From Fibrisoma montanum (lineage in GTDB: Bacteria > Bacteroidota > Bacteroidia > Cytophagales > Spirosomataceae), in assembly GCF_003583365.1 (NCBI RefSeq), contig NZ_QXED01000004.1, forward strand, positions 186,001 through 250,000: a stretch of 64,000 bases of DNA. Reading direction: 5' to 3'. The notes beneath the pieces were generated by a model. The model was not told the origin of the DNA and did no database searches. It saw nothing but the letters and a program-made list of their open reading frames with translations. The first letter of the stretch is position 1. Each line of letters opens with the position of its first letter. Below are positions 48,319 to 64,000 of this stretch, in pieces. The position numbers and the translations under genes are program-made.

Positions 48319-48395
48319 GTTTGTAGTTTGTGGTTTATGATTCGTGGTTGTGGCCACGACAGTTAACCACCAACTACAACCCACAAACTACAAAC
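48319..48395 (+). repeat. Long inverted repeat in the atpD-atpC spacer
   Basis: GTTTGTAGTTTGTGG (48319-48333) pairs perfectly over 15 bp with CCACAAACTACAAAC (48381-48395), whose end lies 4 bp before the atpC start codon. The 47-nt interior has further short pairings (CGTGG/CCACG, GTGGTT/AACCAC). It has no T-run and is built from a few repeated words, like the nuo spacers. Confidence 0.8.
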
Positions 48396-56421: not shown

Positions 56422-56560
56422 AACGTTTCTTTCTAGTAGACGATGCCGATAATCTTTGACCAAAAAGTGTACCAAGCCACTTTTTAGTCAATGAACCAGG
56501 GAAACGCTATAAATGTTAGAATTCATTCTACATAGTTTGTGGAGTATATTGCGCATTCGG

Positions 56561-56616
56561 CCGGGGCTTCAGTACGTTGTTTGCTAACCATTTAGAACCA
56601 CGTACTGAAACCCCGG
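56561..56616 (-). other. 17-bp hairpin just downstream of the alpha-2-macroglobulin gene
   Basis: CCGGGGCTTCAGTACGT (56561-56577) pairs with ACGTACTGAAACCCCGG (56600-56616) with one mismatch. It begins 7 bp past the stop at 56623. No T-run follows, so it may stabilise the mRNA end or act as a weak terminator. Confidence 0.65.
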
Positions 56617-56622
56617 CTGCAA

Positions 56623-62803: not shown

Positions 62804-64000
62804 TTACTCAGATCGGATGACTACCCGCACGTTGCTATGCCGGCCTTTATCGTCGGCGCACGAAACGGTCAGCACACCGGGGCGGGGCCTGAAAAAGACG
62901 CCTTCGCCGGGCGACGCTTTCTGGTATAGCTTATCATTGAGGTACCAGAATACGGTTTGTACGTCGTTGGCTGCCAGGCAACTCAGTTCCATTTCGACCG
63001 GTTGCCGGGGATTGATAAAGTATTCGCTGCCGTCGTTCAGGCTAACGATCTGCGGTCCGGATTGAGTATCGCCGAACACCCGTTCGCAGGCAGGGTTGTG
63101 GGGCGGTACGGTCTCGAACGGAATGTGCCTGCTCCGATAGAAAGCCATCAGGTCCGGTGTCAGGTTTGGGTACGACCGACGCACGATGGCTTCGTGCTGA
63201 TCCGGAAGGCAGTACGTACAGTAGGAGATCGTACCGGCTGCATTGGTCGACACGGCCCGCCGGTGCTGGCAGCGCCGAAACCGGGATACGCCCATGATGC
63301 AGTAATCGGTTACTGGATTTGTACAGAATTCGCCGGGAGTATCGCCGGTTTCGGGGCAGATCCGACGCATTGCTAATCCTTTGGGCGGCTTGAACCACCC
63401 CCGGGCTGAGTTGTAGTCCAGGGCGTTGAACAGTTGAAACAGCAGGGGCGTGGCGGTATTGGCTCCACTTAGTTCCGCAACACCGGCCCCCGAAAAGTTT
63501 CCGACCCAGACACCGATGGTGAAGTTTCGGTTATAGCCAATGCTCCAGGCGTCGCGCCGACCGTACGACGTGCCGGTTTTCCAGGCGATACGGGGCAGGT
63601 GGTAGCTGTTATCAAAGTTGTTGGGCAGATCCGGGCGGGTAATCTGGGTCAGCGTGTGCGTGACCAGATAAGCGGCTTCCGGGGAAAAGGATTTAGTCAA
63701 CCTCACCGATCGTCGGCCCGGCCCCGTCCTCTCTTCTTTTGAAAGCGGGGCCGGGCCTACGATTGGTGAGGTCAACGCCAATGCCCCCACAACCCCTTCA
63801 TTAGCGAAACCCGTGTAGAGCCGCGTCATTTCTTCCAGGGTAACACCACATCCGCCCAGAATCATTGAAAGCCCCAGGTCCTTCGCCTGTTTCTGGATAG
63901 TCGAGAAGCCGGCTTTGCGCATCATTGAAATGAAGGTGGGCGTACCAATGTCTTTAAGCAGGGCTACCGCCGGAATATTCAGCGAGTTGGCCAGGGCAAA
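62804..64000 (-). CDS. pbpC: Penicillin-binding protein 1C (C-terminal part, cut by the window end)
   Basis: The frame is open through base 64000 (ALANSLNIPAVALLKDIG lies upstream of the first internal Met), so the gene continues outside. Transpeptidase motif WKTGTSYGRRDAWSIGY (KTGTS box) and the cysteine-rich BiPBP_C domain (about the last 100 residues, ending VVIRSE) are clear. It polymerises and cross-links peptidoglycan in the periplasm. An in-frame palindromic element lies upstream of the KTGTS box (63696-63776). Partner: the alpha-2-macroglobulin at 56623. Confidence 0.92.
   Translation of the reverse strand, partial: FALANSLNIPAVALLKDIGTPTFISMMRKAGFSTIQKQAKDLGLSMILGGCGVTLEEMTRLYTGFANEGVVGALALTSPIVGPAPLSKEERTGPGRRSVRLTKSFSPEAAYLVTHTLTQITRPDLPNNFDNSYHLPRIAWKTGTSYGRRDAWSIGYNRNFTIGVWVGNFSGAGVAELSGANTATPLLFQLFNALDYNSARGWFKPPKGLAMRRICPETGDTPGEFCTNPVTDYCIMGVSRFRRCQHRRAVSTNAAGTISYCTYCLPDQHEAIVRRSYPNLTPDLMAFYRSRHIPFETVPPHNPACERVFGDTQSGPQIVSLNDGSEYFINPRQPVEMELSCLAANDVQTVFWYLNDKLYQKASPGEGVFFRPRPGVLTVSCADDKGRHSNVRVVIRSE
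63696..63776 (-). repeat. In-frame 81-bp palindromic element inside pbpC
   Basis: Arms of 31 bp (63696-63726 and 63746-63776) match at 27 of 31 positions around a 19-nt loop. On the minus strand it is translated as 27 residues containing PAPLSKEERTGPGRRS, between the conserved blocks TRLYTGFANEG and SFSPEAAYLVTHTL. The Pro/Arg/Gly-rich PLSxEERxG wording resembles the hairpin elements scattered through some Bacteroidota genomes (from memory, not searched). The 81-bp length keeps the frame. Confidence 0.85.

Follow-up and report, generated by a model that had tools for sequence, protein, structure and literature searches.

We identified an 81-bp palindrome lying in frame within the gene for penicillin-binding protein 1C (pbpC) of Fibrisoma montanum. 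It is probably a copy of a REPIN-like dispersed element of the Spirosomaceae that landed, or was inherited, in a loop of the enzyme. The analysed stretch of 64,000 nucleotides (hereafter the window; G000:C34:186001-250000 of the 7.79-Mb genome) contains the C-terminal part of the gene (Table 1).

The palindrome and its place in PBP1C

TIGR02073 was the best family for the pbpC fragment, its score staying under the whole-protein cut-off because the window protein is a fragment. In the genome the gene is intact, with an 812-codon frame free of stops. The preliminary description of this DNA had placed an 81-bp, 27-codon element with two 31-bp arms, matching at 27 of 31 positions around a 19-nt loop, between the conserved FANEG and SPEAAYL blocks of PBP1C without loss of frame, and arm comparison and the uninterrupted 812-codon frame bore this out. 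An inverted-repeat search returned 27-nt arms with a 93% match, and four of the six reading frames of the element are open. The palindrome is beyond chance and beyond codon bias: its inverted-repeat score of 21 compares with at most 12 in 20 Markov resamples of the 64-kb window and at most 14 in 2000 synonymous recodings of the element's protein stretch, so that codon or amino-acid bias was rejected as its cause. As mRNA, it is predicted to fold as one long hairpin with a z score of -10 against 200 shuffles. The 6-bp direct repeat at its ends is possibly a target duplication, possibly chance, and was given no weight.

Table 1. Position of the palindrome and its parts in the window.
Feature	Position	Strand	Basis
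pbpC (penicillin-binding protein 1C), C-terminal 398 codons; gene runs past the window end	62804-64000	-	TIGR02073, transpeptidase and BiPBP_C domains
In-frame palindromic element, 27 codons, coding LTSPIVGPAPLSKEERTGPGRRSVRL within PBP1C	63696-63776	-	27 of 31 arm positions complementary, frame open, RNA fold -61.6 kcal/mol
First palindrome arm	63696-63726	.	Inverted-repeat search
Second palindrome arm	63746-63776	.	Inverted-repeat search
Loop separating the arms, 19 nt; partly paired in the predicted fold	63727-63745	.	Arm analysis and RNA fold
Left-hand GTCAAC of a perfect 6-bp direct repeat, one copy at each element end	63696-63701	+	
GTCAAC, right copy of the perfect 6-bp direct repeat	63771-63776	+	

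Among 30 genes (that of F. montanum and 29 from relatives), the FANEG-SPEAA loop differs in both sequence and length. In Fibrisoma limi, the one same-genus genome compared, PBP1C is 89% identical over the fragment and its loop has no palindrome, as had been anticipated for sister proteins. A clean addition of exactly 27 residues, which had also been anticipated, was not found: the loop has 32 residues in the window protein versus 25 in F. limi (7 longer) and is 16 residues longer than in Spirosoma L311. An AlphaFold model (mean pLDDT 71, pTM 0.51) has residues 73-100 as coil between strands 70-72 and 101-103, with a pLDDT of about 48-49 over residues 81-100, and the insert is thus predicted as a low-confidence coil between two short strands. 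Foldseek matched class A PBPs, the best TM-score for the query being about 0.4. The SxN and KTGTS motifs, which we take to be the active-site motifs of PBP1C, lie outside the insert.

Related hairpins and dispersed families

With a 93-bp stretch as query, BLAST found no further site in the F. montanum genome below E 0.1. A part-arm pattern search found a hairpin with CCTCACCGANCGTCGGCCCG arms between genes of this genome (C28:941594), and F. limi has an intergenic hairpin with the same arms (C8:403774). The C28 hairpin had been missed by BLAST, whose silence on weaker relatives therefore proves little. A covariance model trained on the window copy and these two hairpins, the C28 hairpin thus being part of the training set, retrieved from F. 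montanum the window copy, the C28 hairpin and nothing else (150 of 1749 candidates scored) and from F. limi one hairpin (150 of 1367 candidates scored). A weak match in genome G005, inside another repeat, was judged unrelated. Since there is no close second copy, the element does not form a high-copy family in its own genome, a proposal that neither BLAST (nothing below E 0.1) nor the covariance model supported. The preliminary description had proposed a search for further copies in the genome, whose absence would speak against insertion; by BLAST, full-length copies are indeed nearly absent, and one intergenic hairpin shares the arm.

At E ≤ 0.01, the element had a DNA match in one of 78 relatives, over one arm only. 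We also searched 1.83 Mb of fetched sequence, leaving aside six loci at or adjoining the element's own place; this set is rich in pbpC, which favours pbpC matches. Spirosoma L319 gave the best match, in its pbpC loop (87% over 39 columns, 37.2 bits), followed by the intergenic hairpins of F. limi (35.6 bits) and of the own genome (32.6 bits). The 21 controls (the reversed element and 20 shuffles) reached at most 31.1 bits, a value that the L295 pbpC loop merely equals.

Dispersed copies are present in relatives. The pbpC palindrome of Larkinella soli belongs to a 101-bp element with 82 matches at E ≤ 0.01 and at least 40 full-length places plus one partial, the 40 being a lower bound because 40 of 139 candidates were scored. 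This element had no match at E ≤ 0.01 in eight of eight congeners, and related hairpins are present in G003, a genome of another genus. Among 35 copies inspected by eye with their reading frames, only the one in pbpC lies clearly inside a conserved gene on both sides. Thirty copies chosen by end pattern (5 of the 35 did not fit and were dropped) had no excess of direct repeats at their ends, with 3-base repeats in at most 2 of 30 copies at any one offset and 4-base repeats in 1 of 30, and the 6-bp repeat of the window copy has no counterpart in L. soli. An absence of target duplications is expected of REPIN or IS200-like movement.

These copies also bear on whether the palindrome could have been made locally by replication template switching, the flank being rewritten as its own reverse complement with no inserted element. 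Such switching is known from yeast, where, in the available part of PMC8604942, coding inverted repeats become alike in their arms and coding DNA is changed. The Cu-monooxygenase gene of two Fibrisoma species, with the same core and different self-complementary arms, would fit such a process, as would the palindrome of Spirosoma panaciterrae, whose arms extend into RFTS codons that are also present in F. limi. We nevertheless consider a local origin unlikely. The yeast process is, in that source, a local one, whereas the arm of the window copy recurs in unlinked hairpins of its own genome and of F. limi, and complementarity in the 30 selected L. soli copies (5 of 35 unfit) stops within one flank base, pairing past one further base being no greater than with swapped partners.

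The arm pattern CTCACCCCCNNCCCCTCTCC, with at most one mismatch, occurred in 13 of 17 genomes and its reversed control in none of the 17; there were 63 matches in Spirosoma arboris and one in F. montanum. By our criterion, 11 of 20 S. arboris stretches held a palindrome. Two S. arboris copies are in frame and interrupt the genes for adenine deaminase (adeC) and an FAD-linked oxidase, with Pfam domains on both sides. Across 30 Spirosoma adenine deaminase loci, one of them incomplete, a strong palindrome is present only in S. arboris and its relative G104 (scores 45 and 51), and two other loci have weak scores (10 and 9). The proposed addition of peptide segments to genes by such an element is seen in relatives (pbpC of several genera; adeC and the FAD oxidase in S. 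arboris); by BLAST, the F. montanum genome is nearly without full-length copies.

PBP1C loop palindromes across genera

Of 545 detected stretches encoding a relative of the protein, 80 were kept, which with the F. montanum gene makes 81 pbpC genes; the loop could be delimited in 80 of these 81, and palindromes with an inverted-repeat score of at least 13 were taken as strong. Eight such repeats lie inside the loop (6.2 kb in total) versus three in the remaining 186 kb, and 73 of the 81 genes have no strong palindrome in the loop. Next to the score of 21 in the window, the loop palindromes score 44 in S. arboris, 41 in S. panaciterrae, 36 in an Arcicella MAG, 32 in S. endophyticum, 29 in L. soli, 18 in a Cytophagales MAG and 15 in a Spirosomataceae MAG. 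The three further repeats fall within codons -6 to 33 of stop-to-stop frames, N-terminally and on or close to the start; the one in L150 is ahead of most start codons, those in L205 and L206 overlap possible starts, and we are unsure whether these repeats are positioned before the start codon. A second Spirosoma sample covered 36 genomes, of which 33 had a match; 30 of its loci were retrieved and 29 could be read, several of them already present in the first sample. It adds three loop palindromes with scores of at least 13 (L292, L295, L303) as well as weaker ones. The loop palindromes differ among genera, and the supposition that all have ACCTCACC arms was wrong for L163, L145 and L164.

Recurrence in one loop and the very high predicted stability of the RNA hairpin (z -10) could speak for an adaptive insert, with PBP1C synthesis or contacts tuned by the hairpin in the mRNA or by the proline-rich, basic loop. 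We regard this as very unlikely, given the 73 of 81 genes without a strong loop palindrome, the Arcicella copy being read in a different phase, and inserted peptides that vary widely, though several have PAPL..GEG-like stretches in common.

A tree of 56 pbpC proteins, built without the loop from a selection of loci that excluded most Dyadobacter and some others, required at least nine state changes by parsimony, counted on 11 clear carriers and 40 non-carriers with five undecided rows excluded, and ten if four of these five count as carriers; in this quick tree, 13 of 53 inner branches are unresolved. Parsimony gives no direction, and reading all nine changes as gains would be unjustified. It is possible, although we doubt it, that a single old insertion in a Fibrisoma/Spirosoma ancestor was passed on, with rewriting and loss in many lineages, and that these two genera had no repeated new insertions. 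The L319 pbpC loop as best match of the window element (the L295 loop being weaker and equal to the best control), right-end codons (GGEVN-like) common to neighbouring Spirosoma loops, and DRRT-like residues both in some element-free loops and beside elements would all agree with such an inheritance. F. limi and many Spirosoma, however, have no palindrome, the L. soli family was undetected in eight congeners, and L. soli, the Arcicella MAG, L212 and L164 stand apart on the tree beside element-free kin and so need events of their own.

By eye, a small nested module (CGTCGGACCG-like, coding DRRT/TRRTAP) lies between element end and core in the pbpC loops of L303, L295, L145 and L319 and in adeC of L359, and also occurs in some element-free Spirosoma loops; its arrangement suggests layered insertions.

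Under the preferred reading of a REPIN-like dispersed element, the element would land in, or be inherited in, the loop between two short PBP1C strands by a transposition-like process, which would agree with the L. soli copies having no excess of target duplications, and it may be mobilised in trans by a putative enzyme. The elements are C/G rich with few stops, so that an inserted copy of suitable length, rather than killing the gene, extends the protein by a peptide rich in Pro, Arg, Gly and Lys. Copies would persist in flexible loops of a fold that accommodates extra peptide, which is probably near-neutral, and the repeated occupation of this loop would be explained most simply by tolerance, not by target choice. 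As several related bacteria carry different hairpins there, the PBP1C loop seems to be a place where hairpin repeats can become protein. We propose only tentatively that it is a standing landing site, where different Bacteroidota palindrome families become protein and both arms are rewritten at once, in which case the peptide would change by hairpin-templated jumps and not by point mutation.

Known palindromic repeats and other palindromes of the genome

Coding inverted repeats reportedly occur in mitochondrial genes of Nematomorpha. The best-known palindromic elements lying in frame are those of Rickettsia, and the available part of Di Nocera et al. 2013 (PMC3733652) describes RPEs and intragenic REPs as palindromic repeats that extend reading frames by 20-82 residues but are otherwise mostly intergenic, with REPs at about the same site in recB of two Xanthomonas species. 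The window copy is alike in being a palindrome within a conserved gene, here pbpC, with the frame kept; it differs in belonging to another phylum, where several genera have different palindromes in one enzyme loop. It is RPE-like by behaviour. On inspection, the palindromes end in ACCTCACC/GGTGAGGT or CCACCCCCC/GGGGGGTGG, many Spirosomaceae elements having the former ends with inner arms of the GGCCCC(TCTCC) type. Unlike in the CGTC/GTAG REP superfamilies, no GTAG or CGTC stands at a palindrome end; CGTC is inside the arm of the window element, not at its end.

REPINs consist of two inverted short units with a spacer that form one hairpin, and are dispersed and extragenic, as given in the available part of PMC3116915. 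The L. soli and S. arboris copies likewise have two hairpin units each, inverted around a spacer and hairpin-forming, and are dispersed in many copies, so that the relatives' elements are, in our analysis, built like REPINs, a likeness of build; the window copy itself is one long hairpin and has no such copy number in its own genome. They differ in also lying inside genes, whereas REPINs are described in extragenic space. REPINs also have a RAYT transposase, whereas our search for the PNHxH motif in the window and 392 loci (393 records) gave a single match, in an 82-codon frame of L174, which was judged spurious as a RAYT gene.

We found no earlier account of in-frame palindromic elements in Spirosomaceae in open-licence papers. 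The present cases are in Bacteroidota with 7-10 Mb genomes, with different elements in the same enzyme loop across genera. They offer natural replicates of how selfish repeats become protein, of target preference versus tolerated hits and of how coding palindromes change. They also carry a warning for annotation, as PAPL..KGEG-like segments in these proteins are repeat-derived.

In 464 kb of the F. montanum genome, including the window, 42 inverted repeats scored at least 16, and only those in pbpC and the Cu-monooxygenase gene looked to be inside real genes, as judged from frames and a Pfam hit that, in the latter gene, covers one side of the palindrome. This second in-frame palindrome (L259:18702-18805; G000 C38:118702-118805) is carried by a gene of the Cu2-monooxygenase type, whose F. 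limi orthologue has the core in common and different arms, each self-complementary, as if both arms had been rewritten together. One convergent intergenic site (L264, L322), flanked by a gene that is presumably gapA-like and a gene ending KEVVK, has a CTCACCCCC-type element in F. montanum and a CCTCACCGAGCGT hairpin in F. limi, and is a case of palindrome turnover at an orthologous site. The TTTTGTCATCCCGACG..GGAGGGATCTT palindrome has two copies in 400 kb of the own genome (L251:16506-16595 and L258:15884-15982). In the window, a palindrome of GTTTGTAG/TTTGTGG-like units (48319-48395), with a similar one at L254:9423-9492 of the same genome, is perhaps a member of a dispersed family, and a terminator-like inverted repeat, GCCGGGGCTTCAGTACGTTGTT, lies between two frames (56560-56617).
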